A stretch of 45,948 nt of DNA, taken from assembly GCA_017454625.1 (NCBI GenBank), contig JAFTCP010000142.1, positions 1 to 45,948 on the forward strand, given 5' to 3'. Source of the DNA: Synergistaceae bacterium (GTDB lineage Bacteria > Synergistota > Synergistia > Synergistales > Aminobacteriaceae). The notes beneath the pieces are model-generated. The model made no database searches, was not told the origin of the DNA, and was given only the letters and a program-made list of their open reading frames with translations. Below are positions 4,615-23,080 of this stretch, piece after piece (the stretch's first letter is position 1; each line of letters begins with the position of its first letter). The position numbers and the translations under genes are program-made.

Positions 4615-5988
4615 TTATTCTTTTGTAACAATATGTCTTGTGCATATGCATGAACTTCCTTCAGTGAAGGCCATGTTTACAGCTTGACGCAAAATAAATT
4701 CCAGCTCCCTGAAGTTTCCGGGAAAATTGTAAGTGTTAAGGGATTGAACAGCATCAAGGCTTATTCTTTCGACACGGCGAGATTCTCCCCTTCGCGGATT
4801 TACGTCATCGTTCTGAAGTGTCAGACTGACCAATAAAGGCAAATCATCTTTTCTATCGCGTAACGGTGGAATTTTTATTATATGGTCGAAACGATGAACT
4901 ATGTCTTGACGAAATAATGAAGATTCTTTATCAATGTCCTTATTCGTGGCAGCTATCAAATAACACGGAGCGATTATGTCATCAAGCATCCCTCGCGGTC
5001 TTACTCGGCAGTCGTCCATGTAAGTTAGAAGCCGAGTTTGACACGCAGCATCCATATCACCAATTTCATCAAGAAAAACTACTTCTCCGGCATGAGCGAT
5101 TAAAATTCCAGGATCATCGCGATTTAACCCCGTATAGGATCCATTTAACGCGCCGAACAATGTCGTATCAATAAAATTTTGTGTGTAAGCCGATATATTG
5201 AGCCGAGTGCATTGCTTGCCGGGTGTTAAAACTTGAGCGGCCATTTTAGCGAGTAAAGATTTTCCGCATCCTGTCTCACCTAATATCAACATCGAGGGCA
5301 CATGTCCTTTTTTGCTGGGAGCTTTGGTGAAATAGCTGTTAAGTTCGCTTTGATATTCACTGAGCAGCGTATGTTTTGCGGCTTTTTTTTCGTAGAAATC
5401 CCCGAACCCGGCCTTTTGCAGATCTAAAAGTGCGTCCTTGTATTTGCGCGCAAGTCTCTGTGTGGCGGGTTCAGAAAGCAGGCTTATAAATCCTGATGAA
5501 ATATTTTGATTAGCAACCTTAGCTTTCCATTCAATAGGCTTGGAAAAATCTTCCTCGTGAAGTCCCTTGCTCCTTAAAAGCCGGCGCAGAAGTTTTTTCA
5601 CTAAAGCTGTAAGTGTTCCGAACTCCTCCGGGTCTCTGTTTTCGTGAAGCATTTTAGAAATTCTGAATATTCCCCATATGTCATATCTTGGACTTTGGAG
5701 AACTTGATTTACATCGTCGCCCCATTCGTTATGAGATAAAAACATTATCACGGATATTGGACGTTCGGGGGAAATATTAAGCTCATTAAGAATTGTCGGA
5801 AATCCTACAGCAAAATCGGCTTGGCACGGGTTGCTAATCTCCTCAAATTTTTCTATAACCGAAAATTCTTCTTTGTTAGATTGTCCCCTTAAGTAATCAA
5901 GTATTTCATTGAAAATTTCAATGCATTGTTTTTTCTGGGCATATTCTTTCTTTCCAGAGGCAAAATAAATTTTTATTCTGAAGCTCAT
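4615..5988 (-). CDS. sigma54-activator-like AAA+ ATPase lacking a DNA-binding domain
   Basis: 457 residues. Residues 1-150 look like an alpha/beta domain of unknown type (RIKIYFASGKKEY start, then PISVIMFLSHNEW). Residues about 210-430 are an AAA+ domain of the bacterial enhancer-binding class: Walker A GETGCGKS at 237-244, the L1 loop LFGALNGSYTGL at 277-288 where GAFTGA normally lies, Walker B VVFLDEIGD with D307/E308, sensor IAATN and an arginine-finger-like FRQDIVHRF. The protein stops right after the lid subdomain (NFRELEFILRQAV), so the usual Fis-type helix-turn-helix is absent. Start ATG overlaps the upstream stop (ATGA). RtcR of RNA-repair operons is the closest architecture I know, but its N-terminal CARF is not evident here. 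Confidence 0.85.
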   Translation of the reverse strand: MSFRIKIYFASGKKEYAQKKQCIEIFNEILDYLRGQSNKEEFSVIEKFEEISNPCQADFAVGFPTILNELNISPERPISVIMFLSHNEWGDDVNQVLQSPRYDIWGIFRISKMLHENRDPEEFGTLTALVKKLLRRLLRSKGLHEEDFSKPIEWKAKVANQNISSGFISLLSEPATQRLARKYKDALLDLQKAGFGDFYEKKAAKHTLLSEYQSELNSYFTKAPSKKGHVPSMLILGETGCGKSLLAKMAAQVLTPGKQCTRLNISAYTQNFIDTTLFGALNGSYTGLNRDDPGILIAHAGEVVFLDEIGDMDAACQTRLLTYMDDCRVRPRGMLDDIIAPCYLIAATNKDIDKESSLFRQDIVHRFDHIIKIPPLRDRKDDLPLLVSLTLQNDDVNPRRGESRRVERISLDAVQSLNTYNFPGNFRELEFILRQAVNMAFTEGSSCICTRHIVTKE

Positions 5989-6935
5989 TTTTTCTTCTCC
6001 TTTTTTCTTTTTTCTGCAGGCTGAATACCATTCTTAATATTCCACCAATCCTGCCACATGTTTAATTTTGTAGGATATTCTCCTCCATGTAGGCCGGTTT
6101 CTGTATAACTAAATTCAATATTCTTTAACCCAATACCATAAATGGGTGTTCCGTCAGTCTCATGCAAAATTTCAGGTTCTTTAAAGGACTTACAAACTTT
6201 ATTTATACCCTCACAAAACGTAAGAAGATTTTCGTGCATGCTATTTTTATCACCGCCCTTGTAAAAGTGTTTCCAGCTGAACGGGTCTTCGACATGATTT
6301 TCAGGTTTTGAAAGTTCACGTTCGAGCCACAAGTGTTCTATACCTTCAGGAAGACTTATGCTGCCTCTTGATTTTCCTTGACCCTTTGACGCACGAAGCG
6401 AAGTAATCAGCAGAATTTTATTTTTCCCGTAAACGATCCCAACATTGTCTAAATTATCAAGCCAGGCTCCAGGATCTTTTTCTTTTTTCCTGGTCTTCAC
6501 GTCGTCAGAAGTCTCATTAGCTTTATTAGCCTTTCCATCTTTAACGAAAAATCCGCGTAAAGCTAGAAGCAGCTCATATGATTTTTTACCTTGAAACTCT
6601 TTAGACAGAAAATTAATCAGCACTTGAACTCGTTGCCTGAAATACTCCCTTTGTTGAACCTGAAACCCGAAGTCCGATGATGCCCACAATAATTGACTGC
6701 CGTATAAAAGCCACAAAGGACGGGCCAATTCTCTGGTAAAAAGTTTTTTTTCGTCGTCGATGTTTCCCTGTGGAGCTTCATCATCTACGCCGACATCCGG
6801 AGCATTTTTGAGTTCTTCTGTCTCGGCCTGTGATATATCCGTGCTGCTCTCACTGTACGCCGCCGGTCTTATGACGATTTCGGGCTTTTGAGTTTGGTTT
6901 TGGTTTTGACCTGTAGATAGTATTTGATCCGCCAT
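5985..6935 (-). CDS. unknown protein encoded between RNAP and AAA+ ATPase
   Basis: 316 residues, not recognised. Residues 1-70 are low-complexity and probably disordered (Gln/Asn, then Glu/Asp). A possibly folded helical core starts near LARPLWLLYGSQLLWASSDFG and contains aromatic-rich segments. A Lys-rich insert lies around residue 150, and the C-terminus ends in a strongly basic tail (AEKRKKEKKK). There is no Cys-based zinc site, Walker motif or clear helix-turn-helix. Its start follows the polymerase stop by one base and its stop overlaps the AAA+ start (ATGA), so it is co-translated with both. A polymerase accessory subunit or specificity factor is conceivable from context only. Confidence 0.7.
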   Translation of the reverse strand: MADQILSTGQNQNQTQKPEIVIRPAAYSESSTDISQAETEELKNAPDVGVDDEAPQGNIDDEKKLFTRELARPLWLLYGSQLLWASSDFGFQVQQREYFRQRVQVLINFLSKEFQGKKSYELLLALRGFFVKDGKANKANETSDDVKTRKKEKDPGAWLDNLDNVGIVYGKNKILLITSLRASKGQGKSRGSISLPEGIEHLWLERELSKPENHVEDPFSWKHFYKGGDKNSMHENLLTFCEGINKVCKSFKEPEILHETDGTPIYGIGLKNIEFSYTETGLHGGEYPTKLNMWQDWWNIKNGIQPAEKRKKEKKK

Positions 6936-6936
6936 G

Positions 6937-9900
6937 CTATTTACCTCCTTCCCAAATTAGACGGCTCTTTATGGACTTTTGATCATCACTTTCTCCAATT
7001 CCTGCAAAATTACGTGTAAGGAGCTTTTTAATTATTTCGCTCGTCATAGCTGAAAGATAACAGCCCGAACTTTCTTGCGCAATATACCGAAGTCCTGGAT
7101 GATTATTTTTCCAGCCTTGAGCTAAAGCCGTCTCATAATGTATCAGAGCCTGCGGAAGTTCTTTATTGGCTGTCTGAGCGTATGCATTTCCCCGAAGAAT
7201 GTCTTCAAACAGCATTTCTAATAATTCCTTTTTGCTCCTGCTGTATTTATCCGGCCTGTTTTGTTTGAGATATTTATGGGGTATGTTTTTTTTGCCGTAA
7301 ATCAAAAGTTTCCGCATTTCATGAAGTACATCAGAGTTCCCGCTTTCACCGCTGACATCATGAAAGCGTTTCATAGCAAGCTGCGTTCCTCTTTCACCTA
7401 TGGCCTGAGCAGCTGTTATTCCTGCCGAAAATCCTTCTTCCACCGGGACAGGAGAATCATAGGGTTTATCCGCAATATCTGCACCATAACAAAGTGCGCA
7501 AACATGGCCGTTTTCTCTCTCTTTGCAATGAAGAGGTGAACGAATTATGATTTTACCGCCTTTTCTCAGCTCTTCGGCTTTTAAGATAATATCCTTCTCG
7601 TTTAAGCATTCTGTTTTGCCGACAGGTACACGCCCCCAAGCTATACGCATTAAGTCGTCTTCAATTTTTCCGAGCGTCGGGAATATAAATCCATCAACGA
7701 GAAGCCTGTCATGTTCTGCGGAATAAGTAATTTCAAGTCCCTCATCCGTCCCGCAGTCGTATTTATTAACTGTGAACTCGTAAAGTCCTTCAGCAAGCTG
7801 ACGCGTGAAATATCCGGCATCCGCAACAGAAAGTTTCTTTTGAGCCATAGAATAACGCGAAGGGTAGCTGTAATCAAACAATTCATCATCGCTGAGACCT
7901 TGCCAAAAATTTCCGTTTATAAAAACAGTTTCCGTTTCTCCTTCGTAATCCTCATCGGTATAATCTTTATCCGTCATCTTTTGAATGCTTCCGATTGCCC
8001 AGACCATCTGCATAACATCCTGAATGCTTCCTTTAGCTCCTGAGTTAAGCATCACAGAAAGGCCGTAATCGTTATATTTCTCCAAAAGTTTTTTGAGCTG
8101 TGATTTAGCGTCTTCCTGCAGCTCTGTTTTTTTGCCTTCTTGTTCGTGCAAGTCAAATATTTCTTCAAGCTCATCACAGAGGGTTTCAAATTCCAAAGGT
8201 GTTAAAGTTACAGAACCAGTTGAAGCCTCGCAGATTTCTAACTGTAATTTATGCAACTCTTCTCTTCGCGTATCAGTATCAAGATTTTTCAGGAGTTGAG
8301 GAAGATAAACAGAAAATTTTGTACGTTCTGTATTATTTTTTGAGGCCCACCAGCCTAAAGCTAAATCTAATCCGTCAGCAAATGCGGGTTTTCCTGTCCC
8401 AACAAGTCCGGGATTATTAAGAATTGAGAACGCGCTTAAATCTTTTGCGAACTCGTAAGGCGGAAGAAAAACAGCCATCGTGTCGCCGTCAAAATCCGCG
8501 TTGAAGCCCGGAGTTACGAGAGGAGGAATGCCGATTACAGGCTCGGCCCAGCATCGAATACGAAAAGCCTGAACATTATGACGATGAAGACTCGGCTGAC
8601 GGATAAGAAAGCACCATAATTCTCCTTCGGAACTCGCAAGATATTTCTCCATATCAGAGGCGATTTCTTCTGCTTCGTCTTTTCTAGTATGAAAATCGTT
8701 CAATATTGTGAGGTTTTTCTTGGATAAATCTATTCGGTAATCGTCATAGCCTTTGAGAAGTTCGAATAACATTGCCGCCGGAAGAAACACCGTATCCAAA
8801 TTAAGCGAAGGTTCGGGGACAATAACGGCTCGGCCTGAATGATTGTAGCGTCTCCCAAGAAGAAAACGTCTTATAATTCCGTTTTTCCCCTTCAGAAGGT
8901 TTATAAGCTCATCGCGATATTGAATTAACGACATAGCTCGCTGTATGGGAGTGCTGTCAGGCAATGCAAAAGGTTTTAAGATTTTACGCAGAGATTTATA
9001 ACGCATGAGTTTCGGATCAACGTGAAGGCTGTAAAATTTTTCGATTTGCCCCGTCTTTGTGTTTTCGCGCTCATCTTCGTTGAAGAAATGTTCATCATTA
9101 ATAATTTCTTCAAGAGAGTTAATAATTTTCTTAAGGCGAGTTTCCCCTGACTTTTTGTAAGATGCTTCAAGACGTTTTTTAATCCACTCAGCCTCTTTTT
9201 TACAGTCCCGGCCCCTTATATTTGCACGCACAGGCTGATCGAAATCCTCGAAATTTTGCAGAAGGTAATATAAATCAGATTTTCCAAGCGCATTTTCATA
9301 TTCGTCTGATTGAACGGGCAATCTCGATGCAAATGTTAAAGTACCTTCATTATTCTCAAAAACGATTATTCCGAGAGAACGCAAAACTTTCTTGAAAAAT
9401 TCGCGGCTTTTTTCAAATTCTCCTGTTTGTTTTTCCCGCATTTCGAGAAGGACTTTATCGGCTCCATGACTTAATAAAGCCCAATTTTCCATTTCTCCCA
9501 TTCGCTGTCCTGTGCGGGCTCCGCATCTCATTGGCTGGCCTGTAGTTTCTTCATACGGTGCATTTTCTCCGCGTGCCTGAAGTTTTTTCCAAGCATGATG
9601 ATGAAGTCGGCAAAAATATTGCCACCCCGCGAATGCTCTCGTCCCTTCTGGTATACCTTCGCCGGAGATATTAAAAGTTCCCCGATTATCAGCTCCAATT
9701 TCCATAAGAAGCTCCGTAAGTTCTTGAAGTATAGGTTCCATTTCGGGATCATCGAGCTGCATATTTTGTATATCAATGCTTCCGTTTTCCTCAAGAATTT
9801 TTCTGAGACTTTCGCCGCCCTTTTGAATTAGCAGGGAGTGTGTCATTTCCCAGATTTGTCCGAGATTTTTGCGGCCCATAATTGAGCTGGGAGAAATAAT

Positions 9901-11625
9901 CAATTCAGCACTTCTCACTTCATCCTTAAAATGAATTTGAGGCATTTCTTTATCAGGAAGAACTTTCGTAACAACGCCTTTATTGCCGTTTCTGCCCGTG
10001 AGTTTATCTCCAAGCCCCATTTGACGTTTGACCTCGAAATTCCAGCACAAAGTTATTTCGAGAATATAATATTTCGTTTTTTTTCTCTTGTCCCCTTTAG
10101 TATCTTTAATAATGCCCTTAATATCTACGCTTTTGAGAATACCCGGAGTATGATGATTATAATTTTCACGCAATGTTAATTCTCGGCCTGGATCATCCTC
10201 ATCAAAAATCGGGACATTTAGAACGGGAAGAGCATCACCATATACGTATCTTTCACCAATGCCGCTGATATTCGCATTTAATTTATACAAAGTATCCTCA
10301 TCAATCCCGCAAGCGTCGAGATCATGCTGATATATTACGGCGTTAAAAGTTTTAACGTAATGATAGGGACTTTTTTCAATGCATAGTTTATCCGCAAGCG
10401 ATTTCGAGATTACGAGGCCGTCTTCATAAGTGTAACCTTTGTACGGCATTATTACGGTGAGAGCATTAACCCCAAGCGGAGGCGTAAAACGTAAATTTTG
10501 TTGATCGTATGCACCGATAAGAGCTTTAGTAGTTCTTGCGTTAAGCCCCTCATAATATCCCGGAACTATCGGAGGTTCAGCGCCGGATATACCAGCTTCC
10601 GCCTGTTTCATATTTTTCCCGCCCATCATGAGACGCGGGCCGTCTGTGTGATAAGGATAAGGGATTAACCCCACTGCAGCAGAAAGGAGCTTTTCGCCCA
10701 GTTTTATTGTCCCGTCATCATTGAAAACAGCATCAGCGGCGAGATTAAGTTTTAGGCCGGTTAAATCTGATTCAGGAGTTTGGAATAAACACAGCCTCCC
10801 TTCGTGTGTAGCATGAGGAATTCTTAAGCGTCCGAGTGTGCGAGAACGAAGATCAATTAAAACTTGGCGTTTGGCTTCGAGATTGAGAAGTGGATTAGCG
10901 TCTTCGTCTATAATTTCATCGTCAAAACGTGCTCCATTGCGGGCGCTTGAACTGACAAAAACGGCGTTCAAACCTGCTTCAAGACGGATAAAGTTATTAA
11001 CACTGCATTTCATCTTCCCGTCATTATCAGTATATATATTCATTGCAAAACGTTTCCATTTGAGTTCAACATCATGAAGCCAGGCAGGACATACTTCACC
11101 TTTATCAAGATTAGGGCAGAGATGCAGAGGCGCTTTTTTCTGGGGCGTTAAGTTTTTAGCTTTTTCATCATCTTCACTTTGATTAATGTTTTCTCGGGTA
11201 TTGTTATCATCTTCGCTTAGGTTAATAACTTCTTGAATATCATCGTCCTCTTCGTTTGGATTAACGGCTTCTTGAATATTCTCGTCGTCCTCGCTTGGGT
11301 TAATGTTTTCTTGATTTGAAGCCCCCGCAGATGAGCTTTTGTTAAACTCTTCTCTTCTGAAAATCATTCCCGAAGAATATTTATTGCCGGTAAAAATATC
11401 TTGAACTATACAGCCTCCGTTTGTCCTGTCAGGAAGAAGCCAATGAAGCATAATATCAGTGCCGGAACCAAATCGTTGAGCAAGTTCACGCAATGCTTCC
11501 CCTTGAAGTTTAAGCGTCAAAAGGCTGTATTCTCCCGCTTTTTCATTTTCCAGCTCTGCAGTTATTCCCGTACCATTCAGCCAGTCATTTACAGCTTTTA
11601 TGATATTCTCTGTAGTAAGTTTCAT
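6937..11625 (-). CDS. compact single-chain RNA polymerase, fused beta/beta-prime-like
   Basis: 1562 residues containing both large-subunit cores of multisubunit RNA polymerase in the order beta then beta-prime. Beta signatures: VIMPYKGYTYEDGLVIS, GDKLTGRNGNKGVV (539-552) and GQRMGEMENWAL. Beta-prime signatures: LLGRRYNHSGRAVIVPEP, the catalytic Mg site NADFDGDTM (1042-1050; D1044, D1046, D1048), the F-loop NSGAKGS, the bridge helix ending in SVADAGYFTRQL (from 1266), a four-Cys zinc site (DCGTDEG plus C1367, C1376, C1379) and the trigger loop AAQAIGERGTQLAMKRFH (near 1406-1423). The N-terminal beta-prime zinc ribbon and the sigma-binding clamp helices appear to be missing or very short, as do the large lineage inserts. 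Beta plus beta-prime of E. coli total about 2750 residues, so this is strongly reduced. The ATG overlaps the CARF-HD stop. Confidence 0.93.
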   Translation of the reverse strand: MKLTTENIIKAVNDWLNGTGITAELENEKAGEYSLLTLKLQGEALRELAQRFGSGTDIMLHWLLPDRTNGGCIVQDIFTGNKYSSGMIFRREEFNKSSSAGASNQENINPSEDDENIQEAVNPNEEDDDIQEVINLSEDDNNTRENINQSEDDEKAKNLTPQKKAPLHLCPNLDKGEVCPAWLHDVELKWKRFAMNIYTDNDGKMKCSVNNFIRLEAGLNAVFVSSSARNGARFDDEIIDEDANPLLNLEAKRQVLIDLRSRTLGRLRIPHATHEGRLCLFQTPESDLTGLKLNLAADAVFNDDGTIKLGEKLLSAAVGLIPYPYHTDGPRLMMGGKNMKQAEAGISGAEPPIVPGYYEGLNARTTKALIGAYDQQNLRFTPPLGVNALTVIMPYKGYTYEDGLVISKSLADKLCIEKSPYHYVKTFNAVIYQHDLDACGIDEDTLYKLNANISGIGERYVYGDALPVLNVPIFDEDDPGRELTLRENYNHHTPGILKSVDIKGIIKDTKGDKRKKTKYYILEITLCWNFEVKRQMGLGDKLTGRNGNKGVVTKVLPDKEMPQIHFKDEVRSAELIISPSSIMGRKNLGQIWEMTHSLLIQKGGESLRKILEENGSIDIQNMQLDDPEMEPILQELTELLMEIGADNRGTFNISGEGIPEGTRAFAGWQYFCRLHHHAWKKLQARGENAPYEETTGQPMRCGARTGQRMGEMENWALLSHGADKVLLEMREKQTGEFEKSREFFKKVLRSLGIIVFENNEGTLTFASRLPVQSDEYENALGKSDLYYLLQNFEDFDQPVRANIRGRDCKKEAEWIKKRLEASYKKSGETRLKKIINSLEEIINDEHFFNEDERENTKTGQIEKFYSLHVDPKLMRYKSLRKILKPFALPDSTPIQRAMSLIQYRDELINLLKGKNGIIRRFLLGRRYNHSGRAVIVPEPSLNLDTVFLPAAMLFELLKGYDDYRIDLSKKNLTILNDFHTRKDEAEEIASDMEKYLASSEGELWCFLIRQPSLHRHNVQAFRIRCWAEPVIGIPPLVTPGFNADFDGDTMAVFLPPYEFAKDLSAFSILNNPGLVGTGKPAFADGLDLALGWWASKNNTERTKFSVYLPQLLKNLDTDTRREELHKLQLEICEASTGSVTLTPLEFETLCDELEEIFDLHEQEGKKTELQEDAKSQLKKLLEKYNDYGLSVMLNSGAKGSIQDVMQMVWAIGSIQKMTDKDYTDEDYEGETETVFINGNFWQGLSDDELFDYSYPSRYSMAQKKLSVADAGYFTRQLAEGLYEFTVNKYDCGTDEGLEITYSAEHDRLLVDGFIFPTLGKIEDDLMRIAWGRVPVGKTECLNEKDIILKAEELRKGGKIIIRSPLHCKERENGHVCALCYGADIADKPYDSPVPVEEGFSAGITAAQAIGERGTQLAMKRFHDVSGESGNSDVLHEMRKLLIYGKKNIPHKYLKQNRPDKYSRSKKELLEMLFEDILRGNAYAQTANKELPQALIHYETALAQGWKNNHPGLRYIAQESSGCYLSAMTSEIIKKLLTRNFAGIGESDDQKSIKSRLIWEGGK
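11152..11304 (-). repeat. in-frame ~39-bp tandem repeats encoding an acidic linker
   Basis: Residues about 108-158 of the fused RNA polymerase consist of four imperfect units of 12-13 residues, such as INPSEDDENIQEA, VNPNEEDDDIQEV and INLSEDDNNTREN. They link an N-terminal domain (1-100) of unknown type to the beta core. The segment is strongly acidic and probably disordered, and its copy number could vary by slippage without breaking the frame. Confidence 0.85.
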
Positions 11626-13766
11626 TGGTCAACTACCTCTGCTCTTAGAATAATTTTGTCTCCTAGAATGTTTCTTACTGATTTATATTCCTGCTCAATA
11701 TCCCTGCAAACTTCCCCAAGAATTACGCTGAAGTTTCCGTGAACATCGTAAAAATCAGAGTTCGGGAATACCTCAACGATTATTTCTCCATTTCTCCAAA
11801 CGGGAAGAACAAAACCTACATGCTGATGTTTGCTGAAGTGTAAATATTGTTCACTCTTAAAGGCGGCGCGGTTTGCAAGGGACAGAGCCGTAAATTGCGG
11901 TAGTGCCTGCGTTTGGATATTTTCCCATGAGCCGTATTTATTTCTTAAGTCTTGTAATTCACAAAAAATCAACGGATAAATAGAGTTGCAAAGTTCACCT
12001 AAATTTTTCTGGTGTGGAATTTCCGTAAGCTCGTTAATTTTATTCTGCAAATCTCCGCTCAAATATTCCATAAAGCCGCGAAGCTGCAAAAGCATTAACA
12101 TTGTTTCCTCTTCGCCGCGATGTTTCCTGTATTCAAGATAATCATTGCTGATAACGCGATCCGTTTGAACATCACAGCCGTCAATAATTCTCATCACAGC
12201 CGCGATATTAAGCAGCTTTTCAACCTCAACAGGACAATTTTCTTTTATCTCCGAATAGCGAACATCTAAGGGCCTGAGAGTTTTTGCAAAATTTTCTTTC
12301 CCGAAAAGTAATTCCCCCGCATGTTTAATTTTCTCGCTGGGATTTGCTGTAAATCCTTTTAGTGTCGTATATCCCCTGTGATGTTCGGCAATTAACGGGA
12401 CACAACGCCTTAAAATTTCAGTCTTGGGATTATCGCCGCCGCCCGTAAATGAGAAATAACGATTATCTCTGCGGAGAAGAACTCCAGTAAGCAGATGATG
12501 AACCTCACGAACTGCCGAAGGAAACATTCCCAAAGGTAAAACATCTTCCGCATTTACAGAAACAGGCGGGTATGATAACGCTGTATGTCCTATATCATGA
12601 AGATAAATCGAGGCAATCAGCAAAGCTAGCATTTCGGGATATTCTTTGTTGAAGCCAAGTGATTTTAACGGTTCCTCAGCACACCTGAAAAGATTCGCCG
12701 CAAATTCCATTAAACGCTTTGAGTGTCTCCGGCTGTGTTCAACTGTTTCGGGGATTTGATCTCCAGCCCATATTTGAGACCAATTATGTATAAGCAAATT
12801 TTGCAGGTAATCTGCCCATTTCCTTCCTTCTGCTCCGTAACTCCGTAATCTTTCGAATAAAGCCTCGCCCGTTCCGTAAGGTTTCTCTCGTGCCTTCCTG
12901 TAGCTTTCGAGAAAAGTTCCTGCAAGTTCCCTTGAATCCTGCACCCATTGAGGCAAAACTTTTATATCAAAATTTGCGCGGTTCTTTATGGCTTTAAGTA
13001 TATTTATTTCCTCATCTAAAGCTGTGTAGGCATATCCAAGCGGAATATTCATGACCTCGTAGGCTTTTGGTGAAGTCTCGAACGTGTAAAGACAAGGGAT
13101 AGAATTAATCTGAGCGTAAAGCATTGCAAACCCTGATACGGCTTTGAAACTTCCGGTTGAGCAGATAATTAATTCTTCGTTGGCGTTAACGGCTTCTTGA
13201 ACTTGCTTATCCAAGACGCTGAACAATCCCGAAATTGACGCTAAAAACTTTTCTCGCTCGTCAACGCTAATAGGAAGAGGGATAATTGTATCGGAATTTC
13301 TGCTGCAAATAATTTCAACGTTGAGAAACAGACGCTTTAATTTATCGAGACATACACACGCAGCATGAGCATTAAGCTCCGAGACTTCCGTTTTTGATGG
13401 GAGTAAAATTATGCGCAGGCTGGAAATATTTTTTTCGTTTTCTCCGAGCCAGCGTATTATCGTTTGTGTTTCTGCGGTTGGAAATCTACAGCCCTCAAAG
13501 TTTTTCGAGACCTCCTGAATTTCTTTATCCGACATAAACGGAACTTCACGCATCAATTTATATACTTTTTCTCTGTCAGGCGGAATCCCTTTCTCATCGA
13601 AGCGAAAAATATTTTGCACGAAATCAAATAACGGCTCGTCAGAAGTAGAATTATAAAGTTCACTTTCGGAATAATGAGCTTTGGACTTCGCGAGTATATC
13701 AGAAACTTTATGACCATATAATAAAGATGTTCCCACAGTACAAATAATCCTTACTCGTCTGCCCAT
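11622..13766 (-). CDS. CARF-HD fusion protein (type III CRISPR ancillary effector)
   Basis: 714 residues. The N-terminus RIICTVGTSLL and the later CSTGSFKAVSGFAMLYA (near residue 220) match the CARF/APE2256-NE0113 style of ligand-binding fold, which senses cyclic oligoadenylate in type III systems. Residues about 340-560 form an HD phosphohydrolase domain: EHSRRHSKRL, then LHDIGH (H390, D391), VREVHHLL and IAEHHRGY. HD domains cleave nucleic acids or nucleotides with metal ions. It is the first gene of the leftward operon, and its last bases overlap the RNA polymerase start as ATGA. Either a ligand-activated nuclease or a ring-nuclease-like regulator fits. GGGGG lies about 11 bases before the ATG. 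Confidence 0.85.
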   Translation of the reverse strand: MGRRVRIICTVGTSLLYGHKVSDILAKSKAHYSESELYNSTSDEPLFDFVQNIFRFDEKGIPPDREKVYKLMREVPFMSDKEIQEVSKNFEGCRFPTAETQTIIRWLGENEKNISSLRIILLPSKTEVSELNAHAACVCLDKLKRLFLNVEIICSRNSDTIIPLPISVDEREKFLASISGLFSVLDKQVQEAVNANEELIICSTGSFKAVSGFAMLYAQINSIPCLYTFETSPKAYEVMNIPLGYAYTALDEEINILKAIKNRANFDIKVLPQWVQDSRELAGTFLESYRKAREKPYGTGEALFERLRSYGAEGRKWADYLQNLLIHNWSQIWAGDQIPETVEHSRRHSKRLMEFAANLFRCAEEPLKSLGFNKEYPEMLALLIASIYLHDIGHTALSYPPVSVNAEDVLPLGMFPSAVREVHHLLTGVLLRRDNRYFSFTGGGDNPKTEILRRCVPLIAEHHRGYTTLKGFTANPSEKIKHAGELLFGKENFAKTLRPLDVRYSEIKENCPVEVEKLLNIAAVMRIIDGCDVQTDRVISNDYLEYRKHRGEEETMLMLLQLRGFMEYLSGDLQNKINELTEIPHQKNLGELCNSIYPLIFCELQDLRNKYGSWENIQTQALPQFTALSLANRAAFKSEQYLHFSKHQHVGFVLPVWRNGEIIVEVFPNSDFYDVHGNFSVILGEVCRDIEQEYKSVRNILGDKIILRAEVVDQ

Positions 13767-13806: not shown

Positions 13807-13956
13807 TTTATGAGAGTGTAATATACTTTGTGGCATTCTGCAAGATTTTTGATGAAGTTACGCCGTTTAATATAATTATATCTTGAACGATGAAATATTG
13901 CGCACCTGCTGTATCAGTGCTAAAATCCTTCACGTAAAATTATTCGGTTTGTTGAG

Positions 13957-14304
13957 AGTTAAAATTTCCTGTAAGGTATTGAAACCATCAGACACGTAAA
14001 CCTCTCATACCTAGACTGATTATGAACTTTCCTATTAAGGGATTGTGAAATGTACCGGCAAAGTGCTTCGCGAGTCATTAATGCAGTTACGAACCTTCCT
14101 ACTAGGGATTGAAAACTAAGTATCATATATGCAATGTAGTATATCCGAAGTCATGAACCTTCCTATTAGGGATTAAAACTTGGTGAATGCGTCGAGCAAA
14201 GTCGTTTCAGGTATTACGAACCTTCCTTTTAGGGATTAAAACATCCATCTGCGGGGCGTAACGCCTTTTGTGCAGTTCTCATAATGAACCTTCCTTTTAG
14301 GGTT
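13957..14304 (+). CRISPR. CRISPR array 2 (6 repeats, several degenerate)
   Basis: Repeats of about 29 bases at 13957-13985 (very degenerate), 14020-14050, 14087-14115, 14151-14179, 14214-14242 and a truncated one at 14282-14304. The common form starts TTACGAACCTTCCT and ends AGGGATTGAAAC. Spacers are 34-39 bases. The array sits between the divergent RNAP and cmr operons (gene-free 13767-14475), runs in the cmr direction and ends at an intrinsic terminator. Confidence 0.92.
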
Positions 14305-14306
14305 AC

Positions 14307-14336
14307 AGCTCCTGAAATCACAACGGGAGCTTTTTT
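14307..14336 (+). terminator. intrinsic terminator closing array 2
   Basis: AGCTCC and GGGAGCT form a stem around an A/C-rich loop, followed by six T residues. It separates the array transcript from the cmr promoter region. Confidence 0.75.
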
Positions 14337-14475: not shown

Positions 14476-15630
14476 TTGCAGAGCATCACCGAAAAACTTG
14501 GCGCACCTCCTGTTCTGCCTTCCGTGAAAAAGCCGCCTTGTATTGATAATATTAGCCTGACAATCACCGTTGCCACTCCTATGGTCGGCGGAGGAGTTGA
14601 AGCCGGTGAAGTTGATGAAAAAAGGCCCGTCCGCATTCCGTCAATTCGTGGTCAGCTCCGTTACTGGTGGCGAATAATGAACATGAACAAGCCGGATTTA
14701 GCTGATAAAGAAGCCGAGATCTGGGGCAGTACGGACAAATGCAGCAAAGTTTCAGTTGATATTCCAGAACAGCCGAACATACTTTTGCGTTACTGTGAAA
14801 ACAATTTTGATTTTAAAGATAAGTTCGGTCCGGAAGCATACGCACTTTTTGCATCACGACAAAACAAACAGAATATCGCCCGCGAGGGTTTCTCATTTAC
14901 TCTTCATCTTAATTATCCACAAGAATTTAATAATGATGTCAGACTTGCATTATCAGCTTGGCTTTATTTCGGCGGATTAGGCGCGAGAACTCGGAGAGGC
15001 TGCGGAAGTCTTTATTGCACACAAAATCTCATGAGCATTGGCCAAGTTCTAAAGTCCGCACCGTATATAACATTATGGCTGAAGAAAGCTAATGATGGTA
15101 TATCTGCGTGGAGTTATGCTGTGAAAGTATACAGAAGCTACAGGCAGAACAGGAACAAAGGCGAAGGCCCAAGACCAGGACGCTCCAAATGGCCCGAAGC
15201 TGACTCATTAAGGAAAATTACGGGTAAATCACCCAGAAAGCACAGCATACCGATAACTTCACCTTTGCCGTCTTTTCCAAGAGCCGCTTTAGGAATGCCG
15301 ATAATATTTCAATTCTCCCCTCAAGACAGAGATTATGAACCTGATAAAATACAGATTACGCCTAAAAATTCAGGACGAATGTCAAGCCCCGTCATAACTA
15401 AGGCAATTTACAAAAATGGCTCGTGGTATTCAGCCGTAATAATACTCCCTCATGATGAGGCTTTTAGAACGGAATTGAAGCTCACGAACACCGACGCTGA
15501 AAAATACGAAATACCTCCCTTGAAGAGTGCGGCATATAAAATTATTGAGCCTATGAAGGGGACAAATGATGCAATATCTGGATTTGAGCAATTTATTTCA
15601 GGAGATTTCTGGAAGGAGGCCGCCGAATGA
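14476..15630 (+). CDS. cmr1: type III-B CRISPR RAMP protein Cmr1
   Basis: 384 residues. Cmr1 is the RAMP subunit near the 3' end of the crRNA in the Cmr effector complex. Seen: the glycine loop MVGGGVEAGEVDEKRPVRIP near the N-terminus, the hallmark GQLRYWWRIM at 59-68, and GGLGARTRRGCGSL around residue 165. Start is TTG at 14476 with AGGAGG 12 bases upstream; an in-frame TGA lies just before it and no ATG fits the family N-terminus. Its stop overlaps the cas10 start (ATGA). It is the first gene of a six-gene cmr operon. Confidence 0.93.
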   Translation: MQSITEKLGAPPVLPSVKKPPCIDNISLTITVATPMVGGGVEAGEVDEKRPVRIPSIRGQLRYWWRIMNMNKPDLADKEAEIWGSTDKCSKVSVDIPEQPNILLRYCENNFDFKDKFGPEAYALFASRQNKQNIAREGFSFTLHLNYPQEFNNDVRLALSAWLYFGGLGARTRRGCGSLYCTQNLMSIGQVLKSAPYITLWLKKANDGISAWSYAVKVYRSYRQNRNKGEGPRPGRSKWPEADSLRKITGKSPRKHSIPITSPLPSFPRAALGMPIIFQFSPQDRDYEPDKIQITPKNSGRMSSPVITKAIYKNGSWYSAVIILPHDEAFRTELKLTNTDAEKYEIPPLKSAAYKIIEPMKGTNDAISGFEQFISGDFWKEAAE

Positions 15631-17450
15631 ATTATCTTCTCCAGATTTCTATCGGGCCGGTTCAGGATTTTATATCGGCAGCAAGGAGAACTCGCGATTT
15701 ATGGTTCGGCTCTAATATGCTCTCAGAAATTGCCAAAGCCACAGCTAAAAGCGTAAAAGAGTGCGGAGGTGAATTAATATTTCCGGCTCCTTTGAATGAG
15801 GAAGAGTTACAGCCAAATTCAGATTTGAGTGTAGCAAATGTAATTCTTGCCGAGTTTAAGGATTATGATTGCGAAAAATTAAAAGCTGTATCGGACAAAG
15901 CACTTGAAGCCGCAAAATCGCGTTTGAAAGATTACGCCGATAAAGTTTTCTCGAAAATGAGCCGATGGATCGTAAAAGACCGCTGGGATTCTCAACTTGA
16001 GGACATAATCGAGTTTTATAGCGCGTGGGTTCCTGTTGATAATGATTATCATTCAGCGCGAAAAAATGTTGCGAGGCTGCTTGCGGCCCGTAAAAACATC
16101 AGGGACTTCAAAGCTAATCCATGCTCCGACAGAGTGCCTAAAAGTTCTCTGGATGGTCTGCGTGAAAGTGTGCTCATAAGAAATCTTACGGATGAAGAAT
16201 TATCGGGGCTTCCCAGTGGAGTACGATTAAAGCCGGGAGAGGCGCTCGATGCAATAGGATTGATTAAGCGTGTGCCGTCGGGAGGAGATTGGACTTTTCC
16301 GTCAATACCGCGTGTTGCTCTCGACACATGGATTAGAGGGAAAGGCAAAAATTTAACCGCTGACCATGATTTTATGCAGATATGCGATGAACTCGCGAAA
16401 ATCGACGCATTAAGCAGGGTAAAAATTCCCGGAGGCATATATGACGAATTTCCATATGACGGAGTTGTCTTTCTAAGTGAACGGCATCAATCAATGATTG
16501 ACGACAGCCGAGATAAATTTTTGGCGGGTAATCTCTGCAGCAAAGCGGCTCAATACATCGAATATACTTTCAGCAAAAGCGAACGGCCTAATGAGACATA
16601 CCTCGCGTTTTTATGCGCTGACGGTGATAGAATGGGTAAAGCTCTTTCTGCGATGAGGACTGCGGAGGAACACAGAAAATTTTCCAGTGAGCTGTCATCT
16701 TTTGCACTGAAAGCCCGCGATGTTATAGGCGCAAATCACGGAATATGCGTTTATTCCGGCGGAGATGACGTTATGGCTTTTCTCCCTGTTGATAAGGCTC
16801 TGACCTGTGCAAGAAACCTTCACGATTTATTCGGCAAAATCATGGGGAAATATGGAGCTTCTTTATCCGTCGGAATAGCAATAGCTCATGCAATGGAGGA
16901 TTTAGGGCGGTTATTCCAATACGGGCGTGAAGCTGAGAGCATCGCAAAGAAAGGAATTAATGACACGGCTGAAGCACAAGGAATTGATAGAAACGGGCTC
17001 GCTGTATCGGTACGTTCTCGCGGAAATATCCCCTTCAATGTCCGCGAACAATGGAAAAATATCGAAGATACACGGGAGCTTTCGGCGCAATCTCTCGATG
17101 TAAGAATAATAAATTTCGCAGGATACTTCTTGAATAAAGAAATTCCCGCAAGATTTCCGTATGAGTTAAGGGAAAACGCAAAATTTTATGATAACTGGGA
17201 AAATAATGATATTCTCAAAGAGGCCGTAATCATCGATGTTATTCGTATATTCAGCCGTAAAGAAATAAATTTGAAGGACGAAGAAAAAATTGCAATCACT
17301 GAATACATAAAGTCAAAAATATTTAACGCTGACACAATCAGGGAACTTGCCGACGAATTAATATTAGCTCAATGGATAGCCTCAAGCATGAAATACGGAT
17401 TAAATGAGAAGGACGGTGAAGAATTTGAAGTATCGAATCAGTCCAATTGA
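15627..17450 (+). CDS. cas10: type III-B Cas10 (Cmr2), cyclase-competent, no HD domain
   Basis: 607 residues. Large subunit of the Cmr complex, which makes cyclic oligoadenylates when target RNA is bound. The N-terminus LLQISIGPVQDFISAARRT is the usual start of the first palm-like domain. The second palm domain keeps the catalytic GGDD (YSGGDDVMAFLP, G378-D381), and D332 lies in FLCADGDRMGK. The N-terminal HD nuclease domain of longer Cmr2 proteins is absent: the ORF begins directly at the palm domain. ssDNA cleavage is therefore unlikely, and signalling should be the main output. It overlaps cmr1 by 4 bases and the cmr3 start region by about 26 bases. Confidence 0.94.
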   Translation: MNYLLQISIGPVQDFISAARRTRDLWFGSNMLSEIAKATAKSVKECGGELIFPAPLNEEELQPNSDLSVANVILAEFKDYDCEKLKAVSDKALEAAKSRLKDYADKVFSKMSRWIVKDRWDSQLEDIIEFYSAWVPVDNDYHSARKNVARLLAARKNIRDFKANPCSDRVPKSSLDGLRESVLIRNLTDEELSGLPSGVRLKPGEALDAIGLIKRVPSGGDWTFPSIPRVALDTWIRGKGKNLTADHDFMQICDELAKIDALSRVKIPGGIYDEFPYDGVVFLSERHQSMIDDSRDKFLAGNLCSKAAQYIEYTFSKSERPNETYLAFLCADGDRMGKALSAMRTAEEHRKFSSELSSFALKARDVIGANHGICVYSGGDDVMAFLPVDKALTCARNLHDLFGKIMGKYGASLSVGIAIAHAMEDLGRLFQYGREAESIAKKGINDTAEAQGIDRNGLAVSVRSRGNIPFNVREQWKNIEDTRELSAQSLDVRIINFAGYFLNKEIPARFPYELRENAKFYDNWENNDILKEAVIIDVIRIFSRKEINLKDEEKIAITEYIKSKIFNADTIRELADELILAQWIASSMKYGLNEKDGEEFEVSNQSN

Positions 17451-18522
17451 TCCAATAATCTCAAGGGATGCTAGGCAGTTCGGCGCGGGAAGTCCTATGC
17501 ATTCTATGAGCTGGCTTTCAAATATTCTTATTGCCGGTGCTGTGAGAGCTGTCTTATGGAAGGCCAATCCAGAACCTGACAGCAGAGAAACTTTATCAGC
17601 ACTGAAAAAAACGACTGTTCAGGGTATTTTCCCGCTGTTAAACGAAAAAATTTATTTCCCAAGACCATTGGATATAGTCAAGAGTGCGAATAATATATAC
17701 CAGATAAAGCCTTGTGAAATTCCTGACAACTGCGGAGTAAATATGCCATTAAGAGGACTTCTGCCTGCTGCTCCTGATACTGATGAAGATTTTAAACCTG
17801 TTCAACTAAATGCTTTTTGGGAAAGGGATTTAATTATTAAGTGGCTCAAATACGGGAAAAATAATTTTTCTCTCAATGATGCAGATACACTTTCAGCTCC
17901 GTTGCATGATGAGAGAGTTCATGCTTGTATTGATCCTAAAACAGGAACGTCAAAAGGTGGAAATTTATTCGCGACTACAGGACTTGATTTTGTACATATG
18001 GACGGCGTTAATGACAGCTTAAAACTTGAACAAATAAGTATCGATATTGAGGGCGGCAGTCTTCCCGAAAAATTTATTGCTCCTATAGGCGGTGAACGAA
18101 GGCTCGCAGAATTTTCGCTCAATGAAGACGACGCGGCTTTATGGGATTATCCCGCAGAACTTCCCGAATTTATTAACGGCAGGCTCAGACTTGTTCTTGC
18201 ATCTCCGGCGATATTTGCTAAAGGCTGGCTTCCTGACTGGATAGGCGAAGAGACGCTCACAGGAAAAATTCCACACACAAACGCGACAGTAAAATTAATA
18301 TCGGCTGTTACTGAAAGATGGCAGCCCGTCTCAGGATGGAGCTATGAAAGAGGTAATACAGGCCCTAAACCGATGCGCCGGGCTGTTCCTGCTGGAAGTG
18401 TGTATTTCTTCGAGATAATCACCGGCACTTTAGAGGCAAAAAATTTATGGCTGAAGTCAATATGCACGGATGAACAGAATATTAATGACGGGTTCGGGCT
18501 TGTTTTGGCCGGGCAATGGTAA
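17425..18522 (+). CDS. cmr3: type III-B CRISPR RAMP protein Cmr3
   Basis: About 365 residues. Cmr3 binds the 5' tag of the crRNA. Family hallmarks are the N-terminal KYRISPIDPIISRDARQFGAG (SPLDPLFFRDGRPF-like, shown here in variant form) and a C-terminal AVPAGSVYFFEI. I chose TTG at 17425 because it places the hallmark right at the N-terminus and has GGTGA five bases upstream. An in-frame ATG at 17404 would add seven residues. The gene overlaps the end of cas10. Confidence 0.9.
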   Translation: MKYRISPIDPIISRDARQFGAGSPMHSMSWLSNILIAGAVRAVLWKANPEPDSRETLSALKKTTVQGIFPLLNEKIYFPRPLDIVKSANNIYQIKPCEIPDNCGVNMPLRGLLPAAPDTDEDFKPVQLNAFWERDLIIKWLKYGKNNFSLNDADTLSAPLHDERVHACIDPKTGTSKGGNLFATTGLDFVHMDGVNDSLKLEQISIDIEGGSLPEKFIAPIGGERRLAEFSLNEDDAALWDYPAELPEFINGRLRLVLASPAIFAKGWLPDWIGEETLTGKIPHTNATVKLISAVTERWQPVSGWSYERGNTGPKPMRRAVPAGSVYFFEIITGTLEAKNLWLKSICTDEQNINDGFGLVLAGQW

Positions 18523-18542
18523 ACAACAAGGAGAAATTCATT

Positions 18543-19409
18543 ATGAATAAAATTAATTATTGGATTCACGCAATTACGCCGCTTCATGTCGGAGCAGGAC
18601 GCGGGCTCGGTTATATTGATATGCCCATAGTACGTGAGAAAGTAACGAATTGGCCGTATATTCCCGGCAGCAGCATTAAGGGAGTTATTGCAGATTATTA
18701 CGGAGCATCTGACGAAGATATACGCAGCAAGGAAGAGCATAGAGACCTAAAAGCCGCATTCGGGACAACTGGAACTGATGATAATTGTGCGGCTGGAGCT
18801 TTAGTTTTCACTGATGCTAATATTCTCTGTCTTCCTGTGAGAAGTTTTTACGGGACTTTTGCGTGGATAACTTCACCTTTCTGTTTGAGACGTGTTAAGC
18901 CGGATTTAAACCTTCCAGATTTCTCCGAAAATATTTGCGCGTTCGTTACGGATAATTCAAAGCTCATAGGCAGAAGCAAAAAACTTTACCTTGAGGACCT
19001 TGACTTGACTGCACAGAAAAATAATGAGGCAAGTGAAATCGCGAATGATATTGCAAGTTCCTTGTTCAGCGAAAATAAAGAATGGCAGAAAATTTTCACG
19101 GAGAGATTTGCTATCATCAGTGATGACTTTTTTACATTCCTATGCGAGGCCGGCACCGAAGTCAACGCTCATATACGAATAAACGAGAAAACAGGTATTG
19201 TCGCCGAAGGAGCTTTATGGTACGAAGAAGCATTGCCAGTTGAGAGCATCTTGACGGGACAAATTTGGTGCGATAAAGTTTTCGTTAAAGGGATTACTTC
19301 TCAAGACCTTTTCGAGCGTTTTTGCAGCGGCACTATAACTCTTCAGATAGGCGGGAAGGCTTCAACAGGAAAAGGATTTGTGCGCTGTATATTCGGGGCA
19401 GGTGATTAA
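18543..19409 (+). CDS. cmr4: type III-B CRISPR RAMP protein Cmr4
   Basis: About 288 residues. Cmr4 forms the backbone of the complex and is the target-RNA nuclease subunit. Hallmarks: YWIHAITPLHVGAGRGLGYID at the N-terminus, WPYIPGSSIKGVIADYY near residue 35 and the glycine loop LQIGGKASTGKGFVRCIF at the end. ATG at 18543, with AAGGAG nine bases upstream, is preferred to an in-frame ATG at 18516 that overlaps cmr3. The backbone nuclease Asp normally lies near the N-terminus; a DMPI motif follows the LGYI segment and is a candidate. Confidence 0.93.
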   Translation: MNKINYWIHAITPLHVGAGRGLGYIDMPIVREKVTNWPYIPGSSIKGVIADYYGASDEDIRSKEEHRDLKAAFGTTGTDDNCAAGALVFTDANILCLPVRSFYGTFAWITSPFCLRRVKPDLNLPDFSENICAFVTDNSKLIGRSKKLYLEDLDLTAQKNNEASEIANDIASSLFSENKEWQKIFTERFAIISDDFFTFLCEAGTEVNAHIRINEKTGIVAEGALWYEEALPVESILTGQIWCDKVFVKGITSQDLFERFCSGTITLQIGGKASTGKGFVRCIFGAGD

Positions 19410-19412
19410 TCG

Positions 19413-19754
19413 ATGTCTGACTTCACCACAAAAGAGCAGTTAATGGCACAACAGGCATATATCAGAGTTTCAGAACGCTGTAAAGAAGCTGACTTTAACG
19501 AGTATAAAAGTTTCGCGTTGTCTTTCCCGTCATTAATTCATTCCTGCGGTCTCGTTCAAGCGGTCGCTTTCGCGAAGGCAAAAAGTAAAGATAACTTCAT
19601 CGAAGATTTACAGGCCGTATTTAATGCTATAGATGATGCCGGAGATTTACAGCGGAGAAGCAGAGAGGCAAATGTTATTGAATACATGAGAATATCTCGA
19701 CATGCTATTTCTGCCGCAAGCTGGATAAAACGTTATTGTCAGGCCAGCGATTAA
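19413..19754 (+). CDS. cmr5: type III-B CRISPR small subunit Cmr5
   Basis: 113 residues, helical. MAQQAYIRVSERC near the N-terminus and an internal SFPSLIHSCGLVQAVAFAKAK match the Cmr5 small-subunit family, which stacks along the target strand in the complex. Length is typical. It begins three bases after cmr4 ends and is followed by cmr6. Confidence 0.9.
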   Translation: MSDFTTKEQLMAQQAYIRVSERCKEADFNEYKSFALSFPSLIHSCGLVQAVAFAKAKSKDNFIEDLQAVFNAIDDAGDLQRRSREANVIEYMRISRHAISAASWIKRYCQASD

Positions 19755-19778
19755 TGACAAAGAAGGGAGGAAAGCGAA

Positions 19779-20825
19779 TTGCAAAGCTGCCGTGAAATTA
19801 TTGACACACTGAACCTTGAGACGGGCGAAAATGCTTCATTATTAATGGCACGTTACATAAAAGATCTCGACGATAATAACGCGTCAAGACATGATTTATT
19901 CAGAGCAATGGCTCATGCTGTTTCAAACGCGCAGGATTTATATTCGCAGGCATTCAATATCAGGCAAAGTGTTTTGTCAAAGACAGCTGTACCGGGATAT
20001 TTCAGGACGATACAACCTTTAGCCGCTGGACTTGGAAACAGCAGCGTATTAGAGACGGGCCTAACTCTTAACCATATTTACGGAATGCCCGTGCTTCCTG
20101 CTTCTTCCATAAAGGGCGTAACGGCTCATTACTGCTCAGAAATTTTCGGCTCAGAAAACCCGGACTATAAAGGCCCCGACATTGATGCCCCTCTTCAGCC
20201 TGCCGGAAAAATCTACGAAGCTCTGTTCGGTAAAATTTATCCGGAAGACGCACAAGAAGCCGGATTACTTCGCTTTTATGACGCGTGGATATTGCCGGAA
20301 TGCGCCGAAAATTCTTTTGTGAAGGATATTATGACCCCTCATTACGGGAGTGATTTTATTGACCCTATACCTGTGAGCTTCCTGACTGTAACCGGCGATT
20401 TTCAACTATGGATAGGCTGTAAAAATTTTGAGGCCGACAAAAAATGGATTGATTTCGCGTTTAGCCTCACAGAAGCGGCGTTAAAAGATTACGGACTTGG
20501 CGGAAAAATCAGAGCTGGTTACGGCAAAATGAAACGCATACTTTCTCCCGAAGAAGTTCAGGAACGCGCAAAAGAAAAACAGCGTGCCGATAACCTTAAA
20601 GCCGGATTTACTTACAGCGAAGGTGATATTGTGAAAGTTATCTGCAAGAAAGTCAAAATGCTCAAGGGCAAGGAGAAGCGCGAGTTTGCTTTTATCGAAG
20701 AAACAGGCGATAAAAACGCTGTACGTTTTGAGGTTGTCCCCAAAATAAATGAGGGCGAAATTGTCATTGCAGAAGTCAAAAGGCTCGAACACGGAAATCA
20801 TGCCTATATGCTTCAGGCTCTATAG
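19779..20825 (+). CDS. cmr6: type III-B CRISPR RAMP protein Cmr6
   Basis: 348 residues. Cmr6 is the RAMP subunit at the distal end of the complex. Seen: GLTLNHIYGMPVLPASSIKGVTAHY around residue 90-115 (RAMP glycine region) and GLGGKIRAGYGKM near residue 250. The last 90 residues form an extension that looks like a beta-rich, OB-like domain (EGDIVKVICKKVKMLKGKEK). Start is TTG at 19779 with GGGAGG upstream; no ATG is near. It ends the cmr operon and is followed by an intrinsic terminator. Confidence 0.92.
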   Translation: MQSCREIIDTLNLETGENASLLMARYIKDLDDNNASRHDLFRAMAHAVSNAQDLYSQAFNIRQSVLSKTAVPGYFRTIQPLAAGLGNSSVLETGLTLNHIYGMPVLPASSIKGVTAHYCSEIFGSENPDYKGPDIDAPLQPAGKIYEALFGKIYPEDAQEAGLLRFYDAWILPECAENSFVKDIMTPHYGSDFIDPIPVSFLTVTGDFQLWIGCKNFEADKKWIDFAFSLTEAALKDYGLGGKIRAGYGKMKRILSPEEVQERAKEKQRADNLKAGFTYSEGDIVKVICKKVKMLKGKEKREFAFIEETGDKNAVRFEVVPKINEGEIVIAEVKRLEHGNHAYMLQAL

Positions 20826-21997: not shown

Positions 21998-22262
21998 GTT
22001 TATAATTTTCCTGGCAGGGATTGAGATTACAGCGCGCCCGACATAGCAACGCACCATGTCATATTATGAACCTTCCTATAAGGGATTGGAAAGATTAGGC
22101 ATACTGCTGTAGTTGCAAACTGGTAGTTACGAACCTTCCTATTAGGGATTGAAACGTGCCATATGCCCCTAAAATATACCGGTTTACGAACCTTCCTGTT
22201 AGGGATTAAAACAACTCGGTGCCAGTTTTTTACGCTAAAATATTAAGAATCTTCCTGTTAGG
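21998..22262 (+). CRISPR. CRISPR array 4 (5 repeats)
   Basis: Repeats at about 21998-22026 (degenerate), 22064-22092, 22127-22155, 22184-22212 and a truncated one at 22243-22262 that ends in TTAGG followed by six T. Spacers are about 28-37 bases. It starts almost directly after the cas6 stop. The last spacer is a diverged relative of one in array 3. The remainder of the gene-free stretch (22263-22404) holds promoter-like sites for the next gene. Confidence 0.9.
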
Positions 22263-22325
22263 TTTTTTCGTCCTTCTTTTTCACCTAAATCTTAAATATA
22301 TTTATCGAAACACGGAATAATAATC

Positions 22326-22353
22326 TTTCACTGAAATAATTAATTATTATAAT
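22326..22353 (+). promoter_or_regulatory. TTTCAC/TATAAT promoter, small secreted protein 1
   Basis: TTTCAC at 22326-22331, 16 bases, then a perfect TATAAT at 22348-22353. The box continues as TTTCACTGAAA. A weaker related TTTCACC occurs at 22279. Confidence 0.6.
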
Positions 22354-22404
22354 AAGAAATTCATACGCTTATTCATCCTAAAATTTTCCAGGAGGTATTT
22401 TTCC

Positions 22405-22665: not shown

Positions 22666-22671
22666 TAACTT

Positions 22672-22699
22672 TTTCACCAAAATAATAAATTAATGTAAT
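22672..22699 (+). promoter_or_regulatory. TTTCAC/TGTAAT promoter-like site
   Basis: TTTCACCAAAA at 22672, 16 bases, then TGTAAT at 22694-22699. It precedes small secreted protein 2, with a leader of about 140 bases. Confidence 0.5.
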
Positions 22700-23067: not shown

Positions 23068-23080
23068 TCCGATTAAACAT

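Follow-up and report, generated by a model that had tools for sequence, protein, structure and literature searches.

A type III-B CRISPR-linked RNA polymerase of Synergistales and its HTH-less AAA+ partner, which probably acts on that polymerase rather than through sigma-54

The window, that is, the whole stretch of 45,948 nucleotides from a Synergistaceae bacterium that we analysed, carries on its reverse strand a module of four genes in the order CARF-HD, fused beta-beta' RNA polymerase (RNAP), X, and—as the last one—a AAA+ protein. The junctions are tight: the CARF-HD and RNAP genes overlap at ATGA, the RNAP and X genes are one base apart, and the X and AAA+ genes overlap by four bases, again ATGA. 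Divergent from this module lies a type III-B CRISPR effector operon, and one small CRISPR array separates the two.

4615-5988, reverse strand: HTH-less bEBP-type AAA+ ATPase (457 aa), from the ORF call
5985-6935, reverse strand: X (316 aa), of no known family, always between the RNAP and AAA+ genes
6937-11625, reverse strand: fused beta-beta' RNAP (1562 aa), Pfam RNA_pol Rpb2_3/6/7 and Rpb1_2/4/5
11622-13766, reverse strand: CARF-HD protein (714 aa), PADLOC CARF7--CARF_HD over its full length (E 5.4e-213)
13940-14310, 22004-22262, and 26043-26326, forward strand: small CRISPR arrays whose repeats are degenerate (about TTACGAACCTTCCTATTAGGGATTGAAAC)
14476-20825, forward strand: type III-B effector operon cmr1-cas10-cmr3-cmr4-cmr5-cmr6 (PADLOC)
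21210-21992, forward strand: cas6 (PADLOC Cas6b, E 8e-56)
23816-25126, forward strand: CARF-RelE ancillary effector (PADLOC CARF7--CARF_RelE, E 5e-97)

The Cas10 of the effector operon retains the cyclase GGDD at residues 378-381 and is without an N-terminal HD. The CARF-HD protein, in which Pfam recognises Cas_APE2256 and HD-CE, and whose HD-type H/D residues are invariant among 11 relatives, is predicted to be a cyclic-oligoadenylate sensor joined to an HD phosphohydrolase. Adjoining the CRISPR locus, at 26457-28341 on the forward strand, a ClpP-like protease gene precedes one for a VirD4/TraG-like coupling protein. The original prediction, made for the AAA+ gene, had placed that gene beside a polymerase, which position is borne out by the contiguity of RNAP, X, and AAA+ and by the overlap of the last two; the prediction mentioned neither the CARF-HD as first gene nor the adjoining cyclase-type III-B CRISPR locus, and those two elements change the meaning of the operon.

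The AAA+ open reading frame is intact, its boundaries are exact, and its product is laid out as follows:

Residues 1-145: receiver-like N-terminus, followed by a linker with an invariant W154-K155
Residues 229-369: AAA+ domain, Pfam Sigma54_activat PF00158 (E 1.5e-27)
Residues 283-288 (5125-5142, reverse strand): L1 loop GSYTGL, in which G283 and T286 are invariant in an alignment of 11 members
Residues 377-440: lid, Pfam AAA_lid_14 (PF25601)

The protein keeps the equipment of a bEBP-type ATPase: the Walker A GETGCGKS and the Walker B FLDEIG, the Asn of sensor 1, the arginine finger R366, and, within PGNFRE, the Arg of sensor 2, all of which signatures are invariant, or nearly so, among the 11 aligned family members. 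Beyond AAA_lid_14 no further Pfam domain was found, and the protein terminates 35 residues after the sensor-2 motif. At the 17 of 19 AAA+ loci, the window counted, where a script could read the C-terminus, every member ends 32-35 residues past PGNFRE, including the two from Thermotogota; the ordinary bEBPs of Synergistales extend for 93-112 residues past the same motif (13 of 13). The claim that no HTH follows the lid was consequently upheld, and a frameshift that had removed an HTH—which event would have undone that claim—could be rejected, since the ends are short throughout the readable relatives and the next gene starts within some 15-20 bases of the AAA+ stop codon. Because all the readable members, those of Thermotogota included, end equally short, the absence of the HTH, judging from these ends, is a stable and ancient property of the family.

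The altered L1 loop, on which the original prediction also relied, calls for a more nuanced statement. The window protein indeed reads GSYTGL in place of GAFTGA; the canonical bEBPs of Synergistales, for their part, read GAYTGA, GSFTGA, or GAFTGA, so that positions 2 (A/S) and 3 (F/Y) vary in them also, and the S and Y of the window protein are ordinary bEBP variants. What sets the family apart is a drift confined to positions 5-6 (GL, SS, GS, GC, GM, DA, GV), with G1 and T/S4 retained throughout and with the GA ending still present in some members (GSYTGA, GAYTGA, GAFTGA). The loop argument is accordingly weaker than first claimed, since most of GSYTGL falls within normal bEBP variation.

When the AAA+ domain was compared with named models, RtcR scored best (PADLOC RtcR_PspF2, E 7e-41; NCBIfam RtcR, 126 bits); the 126 bits nevertheless lie far below the NCBIfam cut-off of 650, and the window protein differs from RtcR, whose architecture is CARF-AAA+-HTH, in having neither a detectable CARF nor an HTH. 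No model of a sigma-54-acting bEBP subfamily was matched above its own cut-off, and thus assignment to an ordinary subfamily of that kind, which would have overturned the prediction, did not occur.

Regarding the N-terminus, for which a ligand-sensing role had been suggested along with a comparison to CARF, SAVED, and response-regulator folds, an AlphaFold2 model (mean pLDDT 82) gave for residues 1-145 a predicted beta-alpha-beta-beta-alpha-beta-alpha-beta-alpha succession, which is a five-strand alpha/beta domain. The top PDB fold matches of the AAA+ protein were bEBPs that combine a receiver with an AAA domain, aligned over some 480 columns, and receiver-containing chains outranked AAA-only chains (1ny5 at 1e-19 versus 1ny6 at 1e-15; for LuxO, 5ep0 at 1e-16 versus 5ep1 at 5e-15), to which gain the linker may in both instances contribute a part. 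A sequence-profile comparison of this N-terminus with receivers was not significant, and the phospho-acceptor position varies between F, D, S, T, and A among members, the Asp not being conserved. Residues 1-228 gave no Pfam or PADLOC match to CARF, and the hhalign comparison of the N-terminus with the CARF alignment of the CARF-HD protein was likewise not significant. The fold thus turned out receiver-like, a CARF or SAVED identity is unsupported, and with moderate confidence the domain may be considered a degenerate receiver.

The fused RNAP possesses the core of a catalytic enzyme. In alignment with the RpoB and RpoC of the same genome, whose separate housekeeping rpoB and rpoC lie elsewhere, it keeps NADFDGD, GDK/GRNGNKG, the bridge helix, the trigger loop, and the second zinc site, and the motifs (N/G)ADFDGD, GDK..GR.GNKG, and the GERGTQL trigger loop were found in 13 of 13 RNAPs of this kind; in the two Thermotogota enzymes the first reads GADFDGD, and a Q replaces the H of the trigger-loop motif. 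The beta N-terminal lobes are missing according to the alignment with RpoB, and both alignment and spacing indicate the loss of the beta' N-terminus with its zinc domain and clamp coiled coil, the stretch from GEME to LGxR measuring 106-301 aa in the fused RNAPs versus 560; Pfam, moreover, gave no match to Rpb1_1. Since the clamp coiled coil is the dock of sigma region 2, the earlier suggestion of a polymerase without normal sigma contacts holds in that part, but not for the region-4 contact at the flap tip: although the flap-tip sequence is not conserved, the segment measures 124-169 aa versus 151, with no consistent shortening, and we dropped the idea of a flap-tip loss.

Being a two-barrel RNAP that the genome has over and above its housekeeping enzyme, it resembles the multisubunit RNAPs of phages and plasmids, from which it differs in that none of the phage and plasmid records reaches 80% coverage of the protein, the best matches being rpoB/rpoC-like at about 27-31% identity; a phage or plasmid origin was discarded because there was no close record. 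The closest plasmid matches are rpoB/rpoC-like genes on large Clostridioides difficile plasmids, for example NZ_CP149721.1 (27% identity).

The third component, X, had no relatives in Pfam, NCBIfam, PHROGs, or the PDB, its model had no fold match, and no similarity to any initiation factor was recognisable. With known families, folds, and factors thus discarded, X constitutes, as far as these comparisons reach, a new family. The AlphaFold2 model, of moderate quality (pLDDT 64), predicts an acidic, disordered N-terminus over residues 1-68, and then a small, mostly helical domain opening with a beta hairpin; the acidic character is general, the N-terminus containing 13-26 D/E residues per 50 aa in 18 of 18 members.

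To which initiation machinery such a AAA+ protein might be coupled depends in the first place on the presence of sigma-54. Upon searching for rpoN, as the original prediction had advised, we found no match to either PF04552 or PF04963 in the window's genome, which is 98% complete, the controls being positive. Within this bacterial family the same absence held for 10 of 10 genomes tested that possess the module, complete or partial, a set that includes the window's genome and the single-contig Fretibacterium fastidiosum along with some genomes that carry the module on incomplete contigs only. Since rpoN is missing from the window's genome and from the nine other carriers of its family, sigma-54 as the client was rejected there, and the obligatory partner of the AAA+ protein cannot be a recognisable sigma-54 in that genome. 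In families f5, f6, and f8, as in the control genomes, both models detected rpoN, and a role for sigma-54 in those families may still be entertained.

These observations bear directly on the conventional explanation, namely that an ordinary HTH-less bEBP, recruited from solution, activates the host's sigma-54 holoenzyme. HTH-less bEBPs that still use sigma-54 do exist, as exemplified by FlgR of Helicobacter; the AAA+ domain does match the sigma-54-activator model, some members keep GAFTGA or GAYTGA, and rpoN is at hand in f5, f6, and f8. With NtrC1, PspF, FleQ, and NtrX the window protein shares the AAA+ core, the L1 loop, the sensor-2, the lid, and the receiver-like N-terminus; it differs from those proteins in the missing HTH, the relaxed end of L1, the absence of rpoN, and the linkage to a fused RNAP and X. 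The single full-strength match to the sigma-54-activator model in the window's genome is, furthermore, the very protein encoded at 4615-5988, and its linkage to RNAP and X is constant. We thus hold the conventional explanation to be very improbable overall and, barring a highly diverged sigma-54, refuted for the window's genome by the lack of rpoN in the ten same-family carriers under the two models.

The linkage was followed over a wider set of genomes, and some gut and anaerobic bacteria are among the carriers of the module. In at least five families of Synergistales (f1, f4, f5, f6, and f8) the order RNAP-X-AAA+ is fixed, and in Thermotogota the same three genes form a separate operon beside CARF-HD. 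The carriers are:

Synergistales, named: Fretibacterium fastidiosum (L058), strain L-13 (L064), MS502-76 (L063), and PG1894_167 (L062)
Synergistales, metagenome-assembled: L054, L055, L060, and L061
Thermotogota: Kosmotogaceae UBA1373 (L069) and ADurb.Bin062 (L071)

An order-wide search of 183 genomes with the AAA+ family recovered members in 17, at E-values from 1.6e-198 to 1.2e-91, with a clear gap to the ordinary bEBPs, which scored 8e-53 or weaker; wherever the contig was readable in that search, none of the members stood apart from RNAP-X. Cmr/Cas10 or CARF-RelE adjoins the block in nearly all the loci with enough flank. An exception to the linkage with cas10/cmr is F. fastidiosum, where CARF-RelE alone adjoins and Cmr genes are absent for about 20 kb around. 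Because CARF-HD also occurs beside Cmr genes without the block, for example in Pyramidobacter, RNAP-X-AAA+ is an optional addition to type III-B systems, and for its part CARF-HD need not act through that block. Across 11 loci the four proteins have pairwise distances that correlate with one another at r values of 0.90-0.95, which correlation fits joint inheritance and, since shared ancestry produces it as well, is no proof of interaction. A scan of genome contigs with X alone gave no match, and the aligned X sequences vary too much to be usable against viral contigs; the CARF-HD then served as the query, and viral contigs gave no match with it either.

A few loci are incomplete: in genome G052 the gene after the RNAP-X pair (contig C98, L012) is dapF, and a AAA+ gene was not detected in that genome, so that the AAA+ part may be dispensable; in G076 the AAA+ gene is split, and G013 is fragmentary. 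One could take these three instances as signs of a decaying, non-functional locus, in which the drift of the loop and the missing HTH would be mere erosion. Such an explanation is scarcely credible, however, in view of the fact that between Synergistota and Thermotogota the module proteins have diverged to about 25-30% identity with their open reading frames intact and with the ATPase and polymerase motifs conserved.

A further element of the locus is a repeated, promoter-like sequence:

22277-26436, forward strand: candidate cognate promoter motif, 9 copies, consensus TTTCACYNAAAT..AATTA..T.ATRA with fixed spacing; also TTTCACYNAAATNNTNAATTANTNTNATRA
Copies starting near 22279, 22326, 22672, 22767, 23146, 25132, 25193, 25619, and 26405, forward strand
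14341: a weaker copy, upstream of cmr1
L016:16708, L087:6661, and L085:5212, forward strand: relatives of the motif in the CRISPR loci of sister species

As a 30-bp pattern of fixed spacing with at most 3 mismatches, the motif occurs six times in the 2.47-Mb genome, always in this locus and on one strand, the reversed control giving zero copies; a weight matrix raises the number to nine, with none elsewhere in the genome. The copies lie upstream of small secreted-protein genes (22405, 22843, 23200, 25271, and 25696) and of the ClpP-like gene (26457), and gene duplication partly explains some of them. Within 22405-23640 and 25271-25929, on the forward strand, five small proteins with signal peptides are encoded, cationic or rich in His, Arg, and Pro; for the protein at 25696, a search of 83 genomes of the family returned essentially only paralogs from its own genome. 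With a matrix trained on the window alone, the top sites of a second species (G059) fell inside its CRISPR locus, with scores of 19.0 and 16.4, the former of which was reached by 0 of 300 permuted matrices, and one of those sites precedes a ribosome-binding site and an open reading frame for a 32-residue amphipathic peptide. In G056 and G042 the result was borderline (6 and 10 of 300 permuted matrices, respectively), and in the other relatives examined the motif was not seen. In L016 and L085 the related motif stands just before tiny hydrophobic or amphipathic open reading frames (MKMLESGGLMTGGDDGGLGDIIAELVKIIIKW; MTMKKPVLDTEDIIIDILVLIGDILKG and MAIASIIVAVAKKAAAAVITEAVKEIVKD). Since the genes of the locus that were examined revealed no further DNA-binding regulator, RNAP-X would be the obvious candidate for the reader of this motif, which possibility we put forward as a lead and not as a result.

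The motif is also what speaks against a different use of the polymerase, in which RNAP would transcribe the DNA of the invader or target, or its antisense, from no dedicated promoters, thus feeding RNA to Cas10, with the AAA+ protein licensing the enzyme. Type III immunity does require target transcripts (PMC9704534), and the missing sigma clamp dock together with the strict Cmr/Cas10 linkage would suit such a role; the repeated, locus-specific, promoter-like motif would nonetheless be left unexplained, and we regard that role as quite unlikely.

Somewhat less unlikely, though still well short of an even chance, is that the AAA+ protein and X are not promoter openers at all, but act in assembly or unfolding, whereby the fused RNAP—or the CARF-HD—would be built, recycled, or switched off. 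Chaperone roles are common among AAA+ proteins, the HTH is absent, L1 positions 5-6 are relaxed, and a fused RNAP devoid of the beta N-terminal lobes may need help in its assembly. Set against that possibility, the L1 insertion and sensor-2 layout are of the bEBP type, features through which bEBPs act on initiation complexes, and the T/S of L1 is retained.

On balance, then, we consider it probable that the locus encodes a private, CRISPR-linked transcription machine whose AAA+ ATPase arm acts on RNAP-X, and not on sigma-54. The original prediction had proposed that the AAA+ protein might remodel the neighbouring polymerase or X directly, and that proposal, which we likewise infer as the best-supported guess, fits all the findings since rpoN is absent, the RNAP-X-AAA+ block is conserved, and the RNAP lacks the clamp coiled coil. 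In bEBPs the N-terminus of sigma-54 is threaded into the pore, which action unlocks the promoter complex (PMC12054792). From a bEBP-like ring, an RNAP without the main sigma dock, and an X with a disordered N-terminus, the most economical reading is that X would be a locked initiation factor: X would keep RNAP, when bound to its own promoters, closed or inactive until an infection signal arrived, either as cyclic oligoadenylate made by Cas10 and relayed by the CARF-HD, or by way of the receiver-like N-terminal domain of the AAA+ protein, whereupon the latter, having no HTH and being recruited through protein contact, would unlock X. The client, the order of these events, a threading of the client comparable to that of sigma-54, the nature of the signal, and the target promoters are all, in this scheme, what we infer. 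More tentatively, and with rather less than an even chance of being right in full, the whole might be a CRISPR-triggered system in which an RNAP with no need of a classical sigma factor, the initiation factor X, and a sigma-54-style AAA+ motor, activated when Cas10 signals infection, would express, from promoters of their own, a set of small proteins, secreted or active on membranes, by which the infected cell is stopped.

Signalling from type III CRISPR to transcription has a precedent in CalpL, CalpT, and CalpS, which act through a sigma factor (PMC11229360); the present module shares that tie and differs in containing a whole RNAP and a AAA+ protein, and in having neither a SAVED/Lon protease nor a sigma factor. 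As for the CARF7 CARF-HD ancillary proteins, of which the first gene of the module encodes a full-length member, they are known as a model, and in the literature searched the RNAP-X-AAA+ partner block is undescribed. In that literature we met no immune system that possesses a multisubunit-type RNAP of its own, and a type III-B-linked private RNAP with its own AAA+ activator appears to be undescribed there, a prior mention elsewhere being possible.

If the proposed interpretation is true, the outputs known for type III CRISPR signalling would come to include a transcription machine, and AAA+ remodelling, thought to be specific for sigma-54, would have been moved to a different polymerase; the minimal requirements of a bEBP would in that event become directly testable with three purified proteins.
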